In this document: piece after piece, positions 56,080 through 64,000 of the stretch
Layout: the number at the start of each line of letters is the position of its first letter
Numbering within the stretch: position 1 is the stretch's first letter
Assembly: GCA_011525695.1 (NCBI GenBank)
Contig: WYBX01000018.1
Coordinates: 1 to 64,000, forward strand
DNA: 64,000 bases
Source of the DNA: Verrucomicrobiia bacterium
GTDB taxonomy: Bacteria; Verrucomicrobiota; Verrucomicrobiia; Opitutales; Opitutaceae
Reading direction: 5' to 3'
Notes under the pieces: generated by a model
Database searches by the model: none
Told to the model about the DNA's origin: nothing
Seen by the model: the letters and a program-made list of their open reading frames with translations, nothing else
Program-made: the position numbers and the translations under genes

Positions 56080-57999
56080 TCAGCGCCGCTGCTGCTTCTT
56101 TGCGCGCCGGGGTGAAACGGACGGCGCCGCTTCGGTCCGGGCCTCCGGGAGGATGTTGGCGATCTGTCGCGGGACGTAACTGGCAAACCGCTCGTGCGGC
56201 ACGGGAAAATTGGGATCGAGTGTGCTCACGAAGGGGTGCAGCGGACGGGACTTCGGCCCCAGGGCCTCGATCGCGGCGAGGGCGGACATCGCGACGAACA
56301 CCCCGTTCGCACGGGGCGCGGCCAGCTCGCGCAGAACGTCGAGGCAGCGCCCGAGGTCGGACGCGGCACCATGGGTGGCGAGCGCTTCCGCCGCCACGAT
56401 CCGGACATGCGGCGAGGAGTCCGCCAGCGCGCGACGCAAAAGCTCCTGATCCCGCTGGACCGCCTCGGAACCGCGCATCAGGAAGCCAAGTGCGGCCCAG
56501 TACCGGACTGCGCTGTCGGTGTCCTCTAGCCAGGCGCGGAGTTGCGGCACATCCGCGGGTTCGAGCCGCGACGCCAGGTCCGCCGCCGCCAGAACCCGTT
56601 GGAACGGATAGCGCGATTCGTCGCGGGCCATTTCATAGGGTGAATCGCCTCGCAGCCGCGAATGCAGCTCACCTTCGGGCAGGAGCGCAACGTCGCGGAC
56701 TTCCCGCTGGTGCGACTGCAGCGCCGCTCGCATCCTCCGGAGGATCGCCTGGTGCTCGGGCGAATCCGCGAGGTTGTGGACCTCGTCGCGATCATCCGTG
56801 AGATCGTACAGCTCCTCCGGCGCCTTCGGAACCCGCCAGAACAGCGACTGGGCCTCATTGGTCAGTCCCGCATCGAACTGCGTGCGCCAGATTCGGGTGG
56901 TGGGCGTTTCGAACTGATATGTCACCCGCTGGCCTTGTGAGACGTGGGGGTAAAAGTTTCTCAGATACACGTAGCGCCCGTCGGTGACGCTGCGGACCGT
57001 GTCGGCGCGCTCGTCCATCCGACCGCGTGCACCAAAGAGGTAATCAGGCGGGTCGCCCTGATAAGGACCGGCGAACGCACGGCCCTGCATCCACGGCGGC
57101 GGCTGCACGCCGGCAAGGCTGAGGACGGTTGGCGCCAAATCCACGAAGCTCACGAGCCGGTCCGAGGTCCCGCCGGGCCGATACTCGCTCGGGGCGAGAT
57201 GCTGCCACTGGGGGGGAAAATAGACCACCAGCGGCACGTGCAGCCCCGAATTCGAGGGCCAACGCTTGCTGCGCGGCATTCCGCTGCCGTGGTCTCCATA
57301 ATAGAAGACGATGGTGTTCGCCGAAAGCCCCGCCTCCTCCAGTTCGCGCAGCCGGGCTCCGGCGTCGGCGTCGGCCTCGCTCACCTTGTCATAATACTGG
57401 GCCCAGTCCTGCCGGACTTCCGGCACGTCGGGATGATAAGCGGGCACCCGGATCTTTGCCGGATCGGCGATCGCCCGATGCGGGCGGGTGCGGATCTGGC
57501 TTTCATGGCTCTTGGTCGAGTTGAAGACCGCGAAAAACGGCTGGCCGGGCGCGCGATTCCGCCAGTGCGCCTGGTTGGAGGAGGCGTCCCACGTGCGCTC
57601 GGTCTTCGGCACGTTGTAATCCTCCTTGCTGTGATTCGTGCAGTAATAACCCGCCTCCCGCAGGAACTCGGGGAATAGCCGGAGCGTGGCCGGGATTGGC
57701 ACCATGGACCGCATGTGAATCCCTCCGCTGCTGTGGGAGTACAACCCCGTGATGATGGCCGTTCGCGCCGGCGCACACACCGGATGCGTGGACCAGGCAT
57801 GCTTGAAGATCATCCCCTTCGCCGCGAGCGCATCGACATTGGGTGTGCGGGCGTTGGCGTCGCCATAACAACCCATCTCCGGCCCGTGATCCTCGCTGGT
57901 CAGCCACAGGATGTTGGGCCGCTCGGCCGCGCCGGCTGGCACTGCACAGGCGAACGTGAGCGCCATCGGGACGAGGCGGAGGACAGGTAAGCTTTTCAT
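56080..57999 (-). CDS. Secreted sulfatase with HEAT-like tail
   Basis: A 639-residue type I sulfatase with a signal peptide (MKSLPVLRLVPMALTFACAVPAGAAE). The active-site cysteine C75 lies in CAPAR and would be converted to formylglycine. NILWLTSEDHGPEMG carries the metal aspartates. It resembles N-sulfoglucosamine-type sulfatases. Beyond about residue 500 the chain turns into alpha-helical HEAT-like repeats (LRAWLEDTDSAVRYWAALGF). It probably desulfates host or algal polysaccharides outside the cytoplasm. Confidence 0.9.
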   Translation of the reverse strand: MKSLPVLRLVPMALTFACAVPAGAAERPNILWLTSEDHGPEMGCYGDANARTPNVDALAAKGMIFKHAWSTHPVCAPARTAIITGLYSHSSGGIHMRSMVPIPATLRLFPEFLREAGYYCTNHSKEDYNVPKTERTWDASSNQAHWRNRAPGQPFFAVFNSTKSHESQIRTRPHRAIADPAKIRVPAYHPDVPEVRQDWAQYYDKVSEADADAGARLRELEEAGLSANTIVFYYGDHGSGMPRSKRWPSNSGLHVPLVVYFPPQWQHLAPSEYRPGGTSDRLVSFVDLAPTVLSLAGVQPPPWMQGRAFAGPYQGDPPDYLFGARGRMDERADTVRSVTDGRYVYLRNFYPHVSQGQRVTYQFETPTTRIWRTQFDAGLTNEAQSLFWRVPKAPEELYDLTDDRDEVHNLADSPEHQAILRRMRAALQSHQREVRDVALLPEGELHSRLRGDSPYEMARDESRYPFQRVLAAADLASRLEPADVPQLRAWLEDTDSAVRYWAALGFLMRGSEAVQRDQELLRRALADSSPHVRIVAAEALATHGAASDLGRCLDVLRELAAPRANGVFVAMSALAAIEALGPKSRPLHPFVSTLDPNFPVPHERFASYVPRQIANILPEARTEAAPSVSPRRAKKQQRR

Positions 58000-58143
58000 G
58001 GGAGGAAGGTTGGCGGCGGCCACAGGATCACGGCGTGGTATCGACGGTGAAGATTGGTGCCAGGATGGGCGTCCGAGCAACCTGGATCCGCGGCGCATTG
58101 GCGTCGAACCGCGGTTGAGGACCGTTGTCCACAATCTTCGCCC

Positions 58144-58308
58144 ATGAACCCAATCCTCATCGGTGCAGTCATCGCCATTGGGCTCATCGCCCTTTTCCTG
58201 ATATTCTTCCGCCGGACCTCCGCGCCGACGCAGACAGGACGGCCTGACGCGCTGGATCGGCCAGAGCTCACCGGTCCCGAGCAGCACAAGCGGCGCAAGA
58301 TGCGGTAA
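58144..58308 (+). CDS. Small single-span membrane protein
   Basis: A 54-residue protein: one hydrophobic helix (about 2-22, NPILIGAVIAIGLIALFLIFF), then a hydrophilic basic tail ending RRKMR. It is divergent from the sulfatase at 57999. I do not recognise it. Adjacent small membrane gene at 58326 suggests a two-gene transcript. Confidence 0.5.
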   Translation: MNPILIGAVIAIGLIALFLIFFRRTSAPTQTGRPDALDRPELTGPEQHKRRKMR

Positions 58309-58325
58309 CCAGCACCTTACCTTCC

Positions 58326-58556
58326 ATGGCCATTGAAAAGGAAAGCACGGGACTGCCGGAGGTCGACCTCAAGCGTCCGACCACGAAGGTGAACCTGGCA
58401 ATCATCGTTGCGGCGGCGGTCTTCTATGCGATCACGATTGCAATCGTCTTCCACTATGCGCGCCGCTCGGACGCGGAGGCGAACGCCCCATCCCCGCCGA
58501 CCCAGCAGGCTTCCGAGCGATCGGTCGAGACCAGGTCGGAAAGCAGTAACCCGTAG
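58326..58556 (+). CDS. Small single-span membrane protein
   Basis: A 76-residue protein with a hydrophilic head, one transmembrane helix (about 22-43, VNLAIIVAAAVFYAITIAIVF) and an acidic, Ser/Thr/Pro-rich tail that looks disordered. It follows the 54-residue gene by 17 bases and may be its partner. No family recognised. Confidence 0.5.
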   Translation: MAIEKESTGLPEVDLKRPTTKVNLAIIVAAAVFYAITIAIVFHYARRSDAEANAPSPPTQQASERSVETRSESSNP

Positions 58557-58648
58557 ATCAGGTCCATCTGACCCGACCTACTGGCATCCGGACGCGTAAT
58601 TGGCGGCTCGGAGTAGGGCAGGTCTGAACCTTCGCGCTAAACCGCGTT

Positions 58649-58686
58649 CTTCGCGGTTCCCAATTCGCGCTCTTCGCGGTTCCCAA
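58649..58686. repeat. Short direct repeat CTTCGCGGTTCCCAA
   Basis: The 15-base word CTTCGCGGTTCCCAA occurs at 58649-58663 and 58672-58686, 23 bases apart. It lies past the end of the small membrane genes, near the end of the next sulfatase gene. Function unknown. Confidence 0.7.
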
Positions 58687-58701
58687 ATGAATTGTTCCGG
58701 C

Positions 58702-60195
58702 TCAGGGGCCGACCAACATCGGCGCCCAGAGCCCTTCCTTGATGGGCGGAGCCTCACCCGAAGACGGATAGGACGACTTTACGGCCTGCCGCAGCTGCTC
58801 CGAAAGCGCGGCGATGGTCGCGGCATGGGCCGGGACGTCCGCGAGGTTCGTGAGTTCACCCGGATCGCGGTCATGATCGTAGAGTTCGCGACCCTGCCGG
58901 CCCTCGTCCCACTCGGTGTAACGCCAGCGGGGCGTCCGGAGGCTGTAGCCGAAGAACCGGGGCCGCGGCCCGCTGCGGCCAACCTGGCTGAGCGCCCAAC
59001 CGCGACCGGTGACCGACGGGTCGCGCAGCATCGGCACCAGGCTCTGGCCCTGCAAATTGGGCGGTGCCTTCACCGCGGCGAGGGCAGCCAGGGTGGGATA
59101 AAGGTCCAGGTGGCTGACGGGTGCGCGGACGACGCTGTTTCGCGGCGTGACGCCGGGTGCGACCATGAGGAGCGGGACCCGCGCGCTCTCCTCGAACAAG
59201 CTCTGCTTCTGCCAGAGGCCGTGCTCGCCGGTGTGGTACCCGTGATCGCTGGTGAAGACAATGATTGTGCTTTCGGCCAACCCAAGCCGATCGAGCGCGG
59301 CCACGACGCGGCCGACCTGCGCGTCCATGAAGCTGATACTGGCATAATAGGCCTGCAGCGCATCGCGGCGAAGGTCGTCGGTCAGCTTGTCCTGTTCGCG
59401 CTTGTAGCTGAGGAGCGCGGCGGGGGGCAGGTCGGCCTGGTCCTTCTTGATATCGGGCACAATCCGCATTCGGTCCCGGGGATAATATCCGAAATAGGGA
59501 TCCCGGGGTGCGACATAGGGCGTGTGGGGCCGGAAAAAACCAACCAGCAGGAAGAACGGCCGCTCCGGACGCCGGGCACAGCGTTCGAGCACCCATTCCG
59601 CGTTCTCTGCCATGATCCCGTCGGTGTGATGGGCGTCGGACTTGGGCGATGCATACCAGCTGAGCGTGCCGCCGAAGGAACCGGGAGTCAGGGTATGGAT
59701 CACCGGGTGATGCTCGATCCGGTCGACGCCGGCCGGGTTCAGCTCCAGTTCCCAGGAGGCCGGATCGTCGTGGCCATCGGTGCCGATGGAGTTGGGGACA
59801 TTGTAATGATACGCCTTGCCAATCCGGCCGGCGAACCACCCCTGCTGGCGAAACGCCTGGGAAAGGCTGATCTGTGCGGGAATCGTCTGCCGGAAAATCT
59901 GGGAATTGGCGCGGATGCCGGTGCTGTTCGGATACAGTCCGGTGAGCATCGAGTTGCGGCTCGGTCCGCAGAGGGGATAAGTGCAGTACGCGCGGTCAAA
60001 TCGGACGCCGCGGGCGGCGAGCTTGTCGATGTTCGGCGTCTTCGCGAGCGGGTCGCCATAGGCGCCGAGCATCGTGTTGAGATCGTCGGCAATGAGAAAG
60101 AGGACGTTCGGCTTCGCCGGACTGGCGGCGAAGGCGTTTGCAGCGCAGGCGAGGAGTGCGACGGCTCCAAGGCAGCGGACAAGGGTTCGTATCAT
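58702..60195 (-). CDS. Secreted sulfatase, iduronate-2-sulfatase-like
   Basis: A 497-residue sulfatase with a signal peptide (MIRTLVRCLGAVALLACAANAFA). The modified cysteine is C76 in CGPSR. NVLFLIADDLNTMLGAYG and FTSDHGYHTGEHGLW supply metal-site residues. Its length and the ESARVPLLMVAPGV segment are like iduronate-2-sulfatase relatives. Start 60195 gives the signal peptide; a longer frame to 60237 is less likely. Confidence 0.9.
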   Translation of the reverse strand: MIRTLVRCLGAVALLACAANAFAASPAKPNVLFLIADDLNTMLGAYGDPLAKTPNIDKLAARGVRFDRAYCTYPLCGPSRNSMLTGLYPNSTGIRANSQIFRQTIPAQISLSQAFRQQGWFAGRIGKAYHYNVPNSIGTDGHDDPASWELELNPAGVDRIEHHPVIHTLTPGSFGGTLSWYASPKSDAHHTDGIMAENAEWVLERCARRPERPFFLLVGFFRPHTPYVAPRDPYFGYYPRDRMRIVPDIKKDQADLPPAALLSYKREQDKLTDDLRRDALQAYYASISFMDAQVGRVVAALDRLGLAESTIIVFTSDHGYHTGEHGLWQKQSLFEESARVPLLMVAPGVTPRNSVVRAPVSHLDLYPTLAALAAVKAPPNLQGQSLVPMLRDPSVTGRGWALSQVGRSGPRPRFFGYSLRTPRWRYTEWDEGRQGRELYDHDRDPGELTNLADVPAHAATIAALSEQLRQAVKSSYPSSGEAPPIKEGLWAPMLVGP

Positions 60196-60288
60196 TGGCA
60201 AAGCTTCCTGGTTGCGGGATGACATTTCAACCCCCAAGCGCGAAACCCTGGCTTGGCTTGGCCACTTGGCGTGAGAGGAGTGTGGGTG

Positions 60289-62238
60289 TCACGGCGCCAC
60301 TGCACTCAAACCCAGCAGGTACCGGGGAATCCGATCCGCTGGCTCGGCGAATTTCAGGCCGCGCAGCACGCCCTGCACCCGCTCCAGCGGGACCTGGCCC
60401 TGGCGCCAGAGGCCTTCCAGCGCCGACTGGGCGGCGAGCTGCTCGTAAAGGTTTCCCTCCTTCACGATCGTGGCAAGCGTGGCAAGCGCCGCCCCGGCCT
60501 CGCCGTGATAGCCGAGCGCCTCGGCGGCCACGGTCCGGACGTCGGCCCACTCGTCGCCCAGCCGCGCCTGCAGGTCCGCCTTTGCCGGTGCGGCGCGAGC
60601 GCCGAGGATAAGGCAGCCGGTGGCCGCCCAGTATCGGATGATCGGATGCGGGTCCTCGAGCGCCCGGCGCAGCTCCGGCAGGAATGCAGGGTCGCGGGCA
60701 GTGGCCCGGTCGGCAAAGTCCACTATCCGCTCGATCGGATAGGCCGCGCTCTGCGCATAATCGTGGATCGTCCGGCCGGCCGCGAGCCGGTCGAACATCC
60801 CCTCGGGAATGAAGCCAGTGTCGCGCGTCGCGATGATCTCGGCGCGGAGCGTCCGGCGCAGGGCGTCGCGCGCGGTCGCATGCGCCGGGTCCCCGGCCAG
60901 GTTGTGCAGCTCGTACGGATCCTCCGCGATCAGGTAAAATTCCTCGGATGGCTTGGGCCGCCAGTAGCGGGACTGATCCGGATTGGTGCGACCGGCCTCG
61001 AAGGCGGCGTACCAGGAGCCCATCCCCGGCATGACCTGGAAGGGATAGGAATAGTGCTGGCCCCAGGGACGGTGCGGCGAGTAGTTCCGCACATAGCGGA
61101 ATCCGCGGTCACGCACGGCCCGGACGGTGTCGTAGCGTTCGTCCATCCGGCCCCGATAAAGGAAGACATGAGCCCGTGGCGGGGCCTGCCGGGTTCCAAG
61201 GAAGGCCCGTCCCTCGTAGTGTTCCGGCAGGGGCACGCCGAGCAGGCTGAAGAAGGTGGCCGGCAGATCCACGAAGCTCACCGGTTGATCAACCCAGGCC
61301 CCGGCGGGGGCCGGCGCGAGGTGCCGCCATTTGGCTGGAAACCGCACGATCAGCGGCACCCGTGTTCCGGAATCATGGATGTTGCGCTTGCCCCGCGGCA
61401 GCGCTCCCCCGTGGTCGCTGCAGTAGAACACGATCGTGTCTTCGGCGACACCCTCCCGTTCGAGCTCGGCGAGCCGCTCCCCGACCTGCGCGTCGAGGAG
61501 CGTCATCTGATCATAGTAGTTGGCCCAGTCGCGGCGCAGTTCGGGCGTGTCGGGATGATAGGGGGGAAGGAGGATCTTCTCGGGCGGGATTCGGAACGAC
61601 GACTTCCCGTCCTTCGGCGCGACCTGGCCTTCGTGACTGGTCGTGTAGTTGAAGATGGCGAAGAATGGCTGGTCCCGGGCCCGATTGCGGTAATGGGCGC
61701 GGTTGCTGGTTTCGTCGAAAGGCTGCGGCTCGCCGGCCAGGTTGAGGTCCAGCTTGACGTTGTTCGTGGTGTAATAGCCGGCGGCGCGCAGGTGCTCGGG
61801 ATAGAGTTTGAACCCGGCGGGGATGGCGACCCGGCTGCGGTGATGCTGCACGCCCAGCGAAGTCGCATACATCCCGGTGATCAGTGTGGTGCGGGCGCTC
61901 GAGCAGACCGGCGCATTGGCAAAGGCGTTCCGGTAGCGGATGCCATCAGCCGCCAGCTGGTCGAGGTGGGGAGTCCGCGCCTGTGCGTCTCCATAGCAGC
62001 CGAGGTACGGACTGTTGTCCTCGCTCGTAATCCAAAGGATGTTGGGACGATCGGCGGCAGTGGCGTACCGGGGGAGCAGGAAGAGGAGACAGATCGCGAT
62101 GCCGTGGAAGAGCAGGCAACCCAGCGGCGGGAGGCCGCGGAAGTGTCCGGCCACCCTGCGCCCGAAGGTGAAGCCGCCGGGAAGGCTGCGGGATATTGGG
62201 ACGACGGGCTCCTGCCGGATGATGTTCCTGGGATGCAT
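60289..62238 (-). CDS. Secreted sulfatase with CxSxR site
   Basis: A sulfatase of about 649 residues from ATG 62238. A hydrophobic signal (PPLGCLLFHGIAICLLFLLPRYATA) follows a long charged head, so a GTG nearer the helix (VAGHFRG) may be the true start. The active-site motif reads CSSAR (C112), with serine where proline or alanine usually is. It resembles the 56080 sulfatase in architecture, including the C-terminal HEAT-like repeats (ALEDPHPIIRYWAATGCLIL). Chemistry probably the same, with a different glycan target. Confidence 0.87.
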   Translation of the reverse strand: MHPRNIIRQEPVVPISRSLPGGFTFGRRVAGHFRGLPPLGCLLFHGIAICLLFLLPRYATAADRPNILWITSEDNSPYLGCYGDAQARTPHLDQLAADGIRYRNAFANAPVCSSARTTLITGMYATSLGVQHHRSRVAIPAGFKLYPEHLRAAGYYTTNNVKLDLNLAGEPQPFDETSNRAHYRNRARDQPFFAIFNYTTSHEGQVAPKDGKSSFRIPPEKILLPPYHPDTPELRRDWANYYDQMTLLDAQVGERLAELEREGVAEDTIVFYCSDHGGALPRGKRNIHDSGTRVPLIVRFPAKWRHLAPAPAGAWVDQPVSFVDLPATFFSLLGVPLPEHYEGRAFLGTRQAPPRAHVFLYRGRMDERYDTVRAVRDRGFRYVRNYSPHRPWGQHYSYPFQVMPGMGSWYAAFEAGRTNPDQSRYWRPKPSEEFYLIAEDPYELHNLAGDPAHATARDALRRTLRAEIIATRDTGFIPEGMFDRLAAGRTIHDYAQSAAYPIERIVDFADRATARDPAFLPELRRALEDPHPIIRYWAATGCLILGARAAPAKADLQARLGDEWADVRTVAAEALGYHGEAGAALATLATIVKEGNLYEQLAAQSALEGLWRQGQVPLERVQGVLRGLKFAEPADRIPRYLLGLSAVAP

Positions 62239-62327
62239 GGACCCGAGCATCCCGGCCGAAGGGCATGCTTCAATCACGAATGCCGCGCCCGGCCGGCAGT
62301 CGTGGCATCATCACCGATCTTCAATGG

Positions 62328-62482
62328 CCAGATCGATGTCGTGATCACGACATCAAAGTGGCTCTGCGTCGGTTCGATGCAAATTCCCCTGCGCAGGATC
62401 CGGCTCGTCCCGAGGAGAAAGCCGAAATGTCGCCTTGGATTCCAATAACCAGATCGATGTCGTGATCACGACGTCGATCTGG
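62328..62482. repeat. Pair of palindromic repeats (CCAGATCGATGTCGTGATCA type)
   Basis: Two copies of a motif starting CCAGATCGATGTCGTGATCACGAC occur at 62328 and 62449. The first has a perfect 20-base palindrome at 62335-62354. The second, 62449-62482, is a 34-base palindrome with a single mismatched pair that becomes a G-U in RNA. Both are followed by TGGCTCTGC. They lie in the 284-base gap between the DUF1080 gene and the sulfatase, in the direction of transcription. They could be operators or a transcript hairpin. Confidence 0.8.
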
Positions 62483-62522: not shown

Positions 62523-63335
62523 CTATTCGTCCCGGGGAAAATTCGTGTTCGGCCGCTCCAGGACCACGTCCTTGATCCAGATGTTGCGGTAACGGACATC
62601 GTAGCCCTCGGCCTGCAGCTTGAGTCCCGCCGGGGTTTCCGTGATGCCGCGTCCACCGTCGTTGCCACCATCGACCCCGGAGGGCGCGCCGCCCCAGACC
62701 TGGTTGATCTCCACGTACGCGTGCACCTTGATGCCGTTGAAATACATCGTGACCCGCGGCTTCTCGACCATCCTGCCGTCCCGGAAGCGCGGCGCACGAA
62801 ACAGGATGTCATAGGCATTCCAGCGCCCCACGCCCTGGTAGGCGAAGTAGGGGGAGGGCGTCTCATTGATCACGGCGCCCATCCCGTGCGTCGTCGCGTC
62901 GCCATCCAGGACCTGGATTTCGTAACGGTTCTGCAGGTACACGCCGCTGTTGCCGCCCTCGGTCATCACGAGGAATTCGACATGCAGCCGGATGTCGCCG
63001 TGCGGCTCCTTGGTGACGATGTCGGCGATGCCAAACTTGCTGCGGACGGTCGCGGGCACGGCCGGATCGTTGGCCGATAGGACCAGGCCGCCATCGATCG
63101 GGTCGGCGAGCAGCGGCCAGCCGATCGGCGGCTTCGCGCCGAAACGGGGGCCCTCCCAGTACTGCCATTGCTCAGCGAGCATTGCGGCGGTCCCATCGAA
63201 AACCACGCGGGCGCCGGGCAGCGGCTTGGCGCCGACTCCGACGGAGCCGAGGGCGGATCCGGTCACGAAGGCGAGAGCCGGCAGGATGAGCCACGCAGGA
63301 ACACGAGATCCGCGGCTGGAGTGCATGGCCTCCAA
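62523..63335 (-). CDS. Secreted DUF1080 (3-keto-disaccharide hydrolase-like) protein
   Basis: A 270-residue protein with a signal peptide (WLILPALAFVTGSALGSVGVGA) and a jelly-roll-like DUF1080 domain recognised by LHVEFLVMTEGGNSGVYLQNRYEIQVLDG and PWNAYDILFRAP-type strands (here GRWNAYDILFRAP). Such domains bind or cleave sugars outside the cytoplasm. It is the upstream neighbour of three sulfatase genes and may act in the same polysaccharide pathway. Confidence 0.82.
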   Translation of the reverse strand: MEAMHSSRGSRVPAWLILPALAFVTGSALGSVGVGAKPLPGARVVFDGTAAMLAEQWQYWEGPRFGAKPPIGWPLLADPIDGGLVLSANDPAVPATVRSKFGIADIVTKEPHGDIRLHVEFLVMTEGGNSGVYLQNRYEIQVLDGDATTHGMGAVINETPSPYFAYQGVGRWNAYDILFRAPRFRDGRMVEKPRVTMYFNGIKVHAYVEINQVWGGAPSGVDGGNDGGRGITETPAGLKLQAEGYDVRYRNIWIKDVVLERPNTNFPRDE

Positions 63336-63542: not shown

Positions 63543-63590
63543 GGAGAGGTGGCAGAGTGGTCTATTGCGGCGGTCTTGAAAACCGACCTG
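63543..63590 (+). tRNA. Truncated tRNA-Ser(UGA), 5' half
   Basis: The segment begins GGAGAGGTGGCAGAGTGG, a tRNA-Ser 5' part with acceptor strand and D-arm (GCAG/TTGC), and continues to the anticodon loop CTTGAAA with anticodon TGA at 63577-63579. Identity ends in the 3' side of the anticodon stem (about 63585). No variable arm, T-arm (GGTTCGA) or CCTCTCC acceptor strand follows. The gene is cut there. An intact serine tRNA cannot be formed from this locus alone. Confidence 0.85.
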
Positions 63591-63622
63591 TTCTCATAGG
63601 TATAGCTTGAAGTAACACCAGG

Positions 63623-63647
63623 ATAACACCAAGCTTATCGGTGTTAT
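63623..63647 (+). promoter_or_regulatory. Inverted repeat overlapping the integrase start
   Basis: ATAACACC (63623-63630) and GGTGTTAT (63640-63647) are exact reverse complements with a 9-base spacer. The right arm contains the first two bases of the integrase ATG. A further TAACACCA copy precedes it. It could be an operator or a hairpin hiding the start. Confidence 0.6.
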
Positions 63648-64000
63648 GGCGAGACCCCCGAAACCGATTAACGGCGCAGTGTCCGACGTGAACGGCATTG
63701 AGCCCCACCCCAGCGGCTACCGTGTTCGCTTTCGTCTAAACGGAACCAATACGGAGCGATACCGTAAGACCAAGAAAGAGGCGGCATCACTCCGGGCCGA
63801 ACTGCTAGCCAAGGCAAACGGCACCAAGGCGGGCTTGCTGGTCGCGCCGACAAACCTGCCGGCGGCACGGCTCCGGGCGGCGGAAACAGCGTTTCACTTG
63901 CTCGACAATGCCGGGCTCAGCAACGCGGCGGATCAGGCGAGTGCCCAAGTCTTGATCGTGGCGGTTCAAAAATTAATCGATGCGGCGGCAAAGGTGGGCA
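63646..64000 (+). CDS. Integrase / tyrosine recombinase, N-terminal part (runs off the window)
   Basis: From ATG 63646 the frame stays open for 118 codons to the window edge. It begins with a short head and YRVRFRLNGTNTERYRKTKKEAASLRAELLAK, the arm-binding N-terminal pattern of phage-type tyrosine recombinases. Next comes a helical stretch typical of the core-binding region. The catalytic R-H-R-Y part lies outside the window, so family is inferred. Its position right after a broken tRNA gene strongly supports an integrase. Confidence 0.7.
   Translation, partial: MARPPKPINGAVSDVNGIEPHPSGYRVRFRLNGTNTERYRKTKKEAASLRAELLAKANGTKAGLLVAPTNLPAARLRAAETAFHLLDNAGLSNAADQASAQVLIVAVQKLIDAAAKVG

Follow-up and report, generated by a model that had tools for sequence, protein, structure and literature searches.

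A tRNA-Ser(UGA) gene cut in its anticodon arm beside a tyrosine recombinase gene marks the probable end of a genomic island in a Verrucomicrobiia bacterium

We analyzed a 64,000-nucleotide stretch of DNA from a Verrucomicrobiia bacterium (hereafter, the window), comprising bases 1 to 64000 of contig C150 (77,080 bases) in an assembly of 6.54 Mb and 157 contigs that is 98.9% complete, and read the contig for a further 13,080 bases, to its end at 77080. The right edge of the window probably holds one end of a genomic island whose own tyrosine recombinase inserted it into a tRNA-Ser(UGA) gene, at the anticodon arm, with the tRNA rebuilt at the far end of the island. The cut gene is the only tRNA-Ser(UGA) detected in this bacterium. 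Integration into the anticodon arm had been proposed in an initial annotation of the window and is now supported by an exact break point in the tRNA, a step in GC content at that point, an adjacent integrase gene, and the occurrence of related integrases beside tRNA pieces cut in the anticodon arm (Table 1).

The tRNA piece is identical at 43/43 bases to nucleotides (nt) 1 to 43 of the intact tRNA-Ser(UGA) of several genomes of the same genus and the same family, whose genes are called intact by ARAGORN with the anticodon TGA at nt 35 to 37. None would be expected by chance in the window for this 43-nt string, with up to 3 mismatches allowed, and only the one occurrence was found. The matched stretch takes in the full anticodon loop (nt 33 to 39) and four of the five bases of the 3' stem strand (ACCG), and identity with the intact genes is last seen after ...CTTGAAAACCG. 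The base that follows is A, at a position that is C or T in the intact genes, which go on into the variable arm and the T arm (the 3' half in the relatives reads about ACCGCTGTGGG...GGTTCGAATCCC...CCTCTCCGCCA); here the sequence goes on with ACCTGTTCTC and then the integrase. The anticodon stem is thus broken in its 3' strand, one base short of the end. This confirms the earlier observation of a tRNA cut at the anticodon stem. ARAGORN calls no tRNA at the piece, and consensus promoter scans upstream of it found nothing. An intron or other structured RNA at the junction was considered and rejected, since an Rfam scan of the junction recovered neither and its folding is no better than that of shuffled sequence.

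Table 1. Features at the tRNA-integrase junction (window coordinates unless marked C150)
Feature	Position	Strand	Remarks
tRNA-Ser(UGA) 5' half, nt 1-43 (comprises the acceptor 5' strand, the D arm, and the anticodon stem-loop as far as base 4 of the 3' stem strand)	63543..63585	+	Putative displaced fragment; matches intact genes of relatives; single occurrence in window
Anticodon stem-loop CGGTCTTGAAAACCG, probable crossover core, with the 7-nt loop CTTGAAA flanked by inverted stem strands	63571..63585	+	Identity ends at 63585; crossover position suggested by related cut tRNAs
Tyrosine recombinase/integrase gene, first 118 codons in window	63646..64000; full gene C150:63646-64896 (416 aa)	+	ORF; PHROG 1; family profile matches
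TAACACC x3 (two direct, one inverted), between att core and integrase start	63613..63646	.	Candidate arm-type integrase sites or operator
Probable left end of integrated element, extending at least to contig end (C150:77080)	63586..64000 in window	+	GC about 0.57 versus 0.65 to the left

The step in GC content falls exactly at the tRNA break, and the GC content stays low for the 13.5 kb that remain to the contig end, so the right boundary of the element should lie beyond the contig. This agrees with the earlier suggestion that the rest of the element lies to the right. Extending the sequence in that direction to the contig end brought up no tRNA 3' half, and the 13.5 kb of the element on C150 contain neither a direct repeat of the core nor an intact tRNA-Ser(UGA). 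The element encodes an HNH-type protein and several small helix-turn-helix-like proteins, as well as a C39-peptidase-like protein near the contig end (C150:75388-75861, minus strand; PF03412, just above the cutoff). It also encodes a 377-aa protein (C150:67947-69080, minus strand) with motifs, read by eye, that resemble those of family A DNA polymerases (DFSALHPHLL and SLHDALYV) and with no match in Pfam or PDB. Relatives of this polymerase-like protein were found in 8 other genomes of the class, and at five of these eight loci a tyrosine recombinase is encoded no more than about 5 kb away; three of these recombinases strongly resemble the integrase family of the window.

The ATG of the integrase is 60 nt past the last tRNA base. 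The recombinase-type frame noticed in the initial annotation is thus real and of full length and does run past the window end, although its start is not 55 nt away as had been stated. It matches the PHROG 1 integrase (E = 1.1 × 10−13), and its matches in Pfam and NCBIfam are weak and limited to the N-terminal domain; by itself, it has no match to PF00589. When aligned with 12 relatives and used as a profile, the resulting family of 13 members matches the structures of XerA, XerD, and the HP1 integrase, and PF00589 is matched by 6 of the 13. Both arginines and the tyrosine nucleophile of the canonical set R-K-H-R-H/W-Y are present (R265, R360, and Y392) and conserved throughout the alignment, and H361 is also kept. 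The canonical His three residues before R360 is replaced by N357 (D/N across the family), and the canonical His/Trp before the tyrosine, after G382, by T383 (N/T across the family). As these substitutions are common to members that lie beside tRNA genes, it is unlikely, judging from the alignment, that the loss of both canonical histidines denotes a dead enzyme; being family-wide, the loss does not refute the integration reading. Peptide-pattern scans of genome and viral contigs recovered no close relatives, their one match being a 31%-identical locus, and the phage collection yielded none; identity to the nearest relative whose tRNA target is known is no more than about 30%. The TAACACC repeats upstream of the gene have no counterpart in the window's first 63 kb and one further copy at 75628.

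An Rfam tRNA scan of the assembly recovered 43 tRNAs, a nearly full set, among which the serine anticodons assigned by ARAGORN are GGA, CGA, and GCT, not TGA. The search for another intact tRNA-Ser(UGA) gene proposed earlier found none in the 157 contigs, and three pattern searches of the assembly for the 3' half recovered only other serine tRNAs and one unrelated match. Contigs C35, C110, and C115, with TTGAAAACCG near a contig end, were tried as possible far ends of the element and set aside, as none carries the tRNA 3' half. Besides Ser-UGA, the only expected isoacceptors not seen are Ala-UGC and Ile-GAU; the genes for these two are usually part of rRNA operons, which often go missing from fragmented assemblies. 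UCA makes up 44 of the 739 serine codons in 26 long ORFs of the window, so a tRNA-Ser(UGA) should be needed. As the assembly holds no copy, a rebuilt gene, if there is one, must be in unassembled DNA.

Related integrases are found beside tRNA genes in several other genomes. In a genome of the same family (G236), two of them (about 30% identity) lie beside tRNA-Ser(UGA) sequence, i.e., the same target gene. At 187 kb (C17:187.4k), an intact tRNA-Ser(UGA) has a related integrase directly 3' of it, encoded on the same strand; at 309 kb (C17:308.8k), a related integrase adjoins a 75-nt 3' piece of the tRNA (nt 14 to 88); and at 369 kb (C17:369.2k), there is a further 68-nt 3' piece. This layout apparently represents two islands, about 121 kb and about 60 kb long, that lie in tandem in a single tRNA-Ser(UGA) gene, with duplication of its 3' part. 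The frame of the first of these integrases (341 aa) diverges after about 250 residues and looks damaged. Elsewhere, an 8.0-kb element lies between an intact tRNA-Arg(TCG) and its nt 33 to 77 (G151), a 9.5-kb element lies between an intact tRNA-Leu(CAA) and its nt 30 to 88 (VHCJ01000016.1), and integrases adjoin 3' halves that read as tRNA-Val(CAC) and tRNA-Arg(TCT) (G025 and G249, respectively). The cuts in these relatives are all in or near the anticodon arm, but the G236 pieces reach back to the D arm. A complete layout of the opposite polarity is seen in a genome of the same order (G420), where a related integrase lies 124 nt from an intact tRNA-Gly(CCC), on its 5' side. From this position of the integrase, we predicted a 5' half at the far end and then found it: an exact 34-nt 5' half of tRNA-Gly(CCC), 24.6 kb off in the same orientation, that ends in the anticodon loop. 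An integrase of the family also lies 5' of an intact tRNA-Pro(CGG) in G284, on a contig too short to show the other end. In addition, another genome has a more canonical tyrosine recombinase frame (G132:C101:3925-5203) whose end is separated by about 5 bp from the 5' end of an intact tRNA-Ser(CGA); a polymerase-like gene is close by, and the locus is possibly another 5'-side island.

With these relatives as a guide, the recombinase would exchange strands in or beside the 7-nt anticodon loop, which would bring the 5' half of the host gene up against the integrase end of the element. The chromosomal 3' half would then be expected at the far right end of the element. There, the element would be predicted to bring a 5' half of its own with a promoter, given that the cell must go on reading UCA, and an intact tRNA would be rebuilt with the host 3' half; the 5' half on the left would thereby become a displaced fragment. 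Since the half that adjoins the integrase is the 5' one, we would place the island in the uncommon "5'-fragment" class, and we find a 5' fragment that ends at a known crossover subsite, a tyrosine-family integrase, and foreign composition from the junction onward. The initial annotation had remarked on neither this polarity, with a 5' half left in place of the usual 3' half, nor the missing histidines. Among the 3919 islands of the Islander collection, the fragment left is a 5' one in 159 and a 3' one in 3760, and the anticodon site is used by 2083 (PMC4383910). The window shares with the Islander 5'-fragment islands (PMC4383910) a tRNA gene split by an integrase-bearing island, with the 5' end at one edge, and it shares this recognized anticodon-centered crossover subsite; it differs in that the rebuilt tRNA at the other edge is absent from the present assembly. 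The pTN3-like archaeal integrases are a known case in which a tRNA is rebuilt from its 5' half and takes its promoter from the element, a route seldom met in bacteria (PMC8371274). As proposed for the window, attB of these integrases is the tRNA 5' half, so the rebuilt tRNA must get its promoter from the element; in contrast to the archaeal enzymes, which are suicidal and split on integration (PMC8371274), the integrase here is bacterial and intact and adjoins the fragment. Compared with its relatives, the window resembles the G236 islands in the tRNA-Ser(UGA) target and in a related integrase 3' of the tRNA on the same strand, whereas in G236 the 3' part is duplicated and the tRNA beside the first integrase is intact. 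With the G420 island it has in common a related integrase and a displaced 5' tRNA half, the one in G420 being 34 nt long and ending in the anticodon loop, whereas in G420 the integrase is at the end with the intact tRNA, not the fragment end, and the tRNA is a different one. We read the window as a case of ordinary mechanism and uncommon polarity, in which the mending step is one that we infer rather than see here. Weighing against this reading are the end of the contig 13.5 kb into the element, ahead of any far end with a rebuilt tRNA and with no direct repeat of the core up to that point; the missing histidines of the integrase and its missing PF00589 match; and the low identity to the nearest relative whose tRNA target is known.

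Other histories of the junction have to be weighed against integration with repair at the far end. The gene might have been broken and never mended, with tRNA-Ser(UGA) function supplied by a complete second gene, chromosomal or element-borne, that was not assembled or binned. With an assembly in 157 pieces and no intact copy, some missing piece must indeed supply the tRNA; nonetheless, none of the relatives has more than one strong match to the UGA gene, and G420 shows from end to end how an island with an integrase of this family can mend its tRNA, and we consider a second gene unlikely. We likewise see little chance that the junction is an assembly artifact, in which empty and occupied (or circular) forms coexisted in the sample and the 5' half was joined to the element end across a shared anticodon-arm sequence. 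The fragmented assembly, the lack of the 3' half in any contig, and the sharp GC change at the junction could all be accounted for in this way. Yet the position of the join makes biological sense, an integrase starts 60 nt further on, the shared core would be a few tens of bases at most, and the same kind of junction is found with related integrases; even a wrong choice of branch would still mark a real att site.

The layout at 187 kb in G236, with an intact tRNA-Ser(UGA) and then a related integrase on the same strand, brings up a further history, namely, that of a usual 3'-fragment island with an intact tRNA by its integrase, from which a later deletion took the tRNA 3' half between the anticodon and the integrase. 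We regard this as highly improbable: a random deletion would need to have one end precisely at the anticodon arm, which is the place that recombination cuts as well, and the cell would lose the only UCA-reading tRNA detected in it.

Integration by the adjacent recombinase with far-end repair is our preferred reading. We tentatively raise the possibility that the window belongs to a family of mobile elements, in this class of bacteria, whose integrases act on the anticodon arms of tRNAs and are without either of the canonical histidines, several members also encoding the small family-A-polymerase-like protein. Such a family would mend its tRNA targets from both sides: a 3' half would be brought by some members, and a 5' half together with a promoter by others (the window and G420). 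In nearly all islands that target tRNAs, it is a 3' fragment that is left, so the promoter of the tRNA stays in place. An island of the 5'-fragment kind has to supply the promoter, here for what is apparently the only UCA-reading tRNA, which would tie host translation to the element. Since both polarities occur among related integrases that aim at one part of the tRNA, how polarity changes can be studied by comparing them directly, and the family-wide histidine substitutions raise the question of which catalytic residues are needed.

To the left of the tRNA piece, three consecutive sulfatase-like genes (56080-62277, minus strand) look like host carbohydrate genes, as does a DUF1080-like gene (62523-63335). 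A palindromic sequence (CAGATCGATGTCGTGATCACGAC...) occurs twice in an intergenic region there, 121 bases apart (62329-62360 and 62450-62481), against an expectation of 0 by chance.
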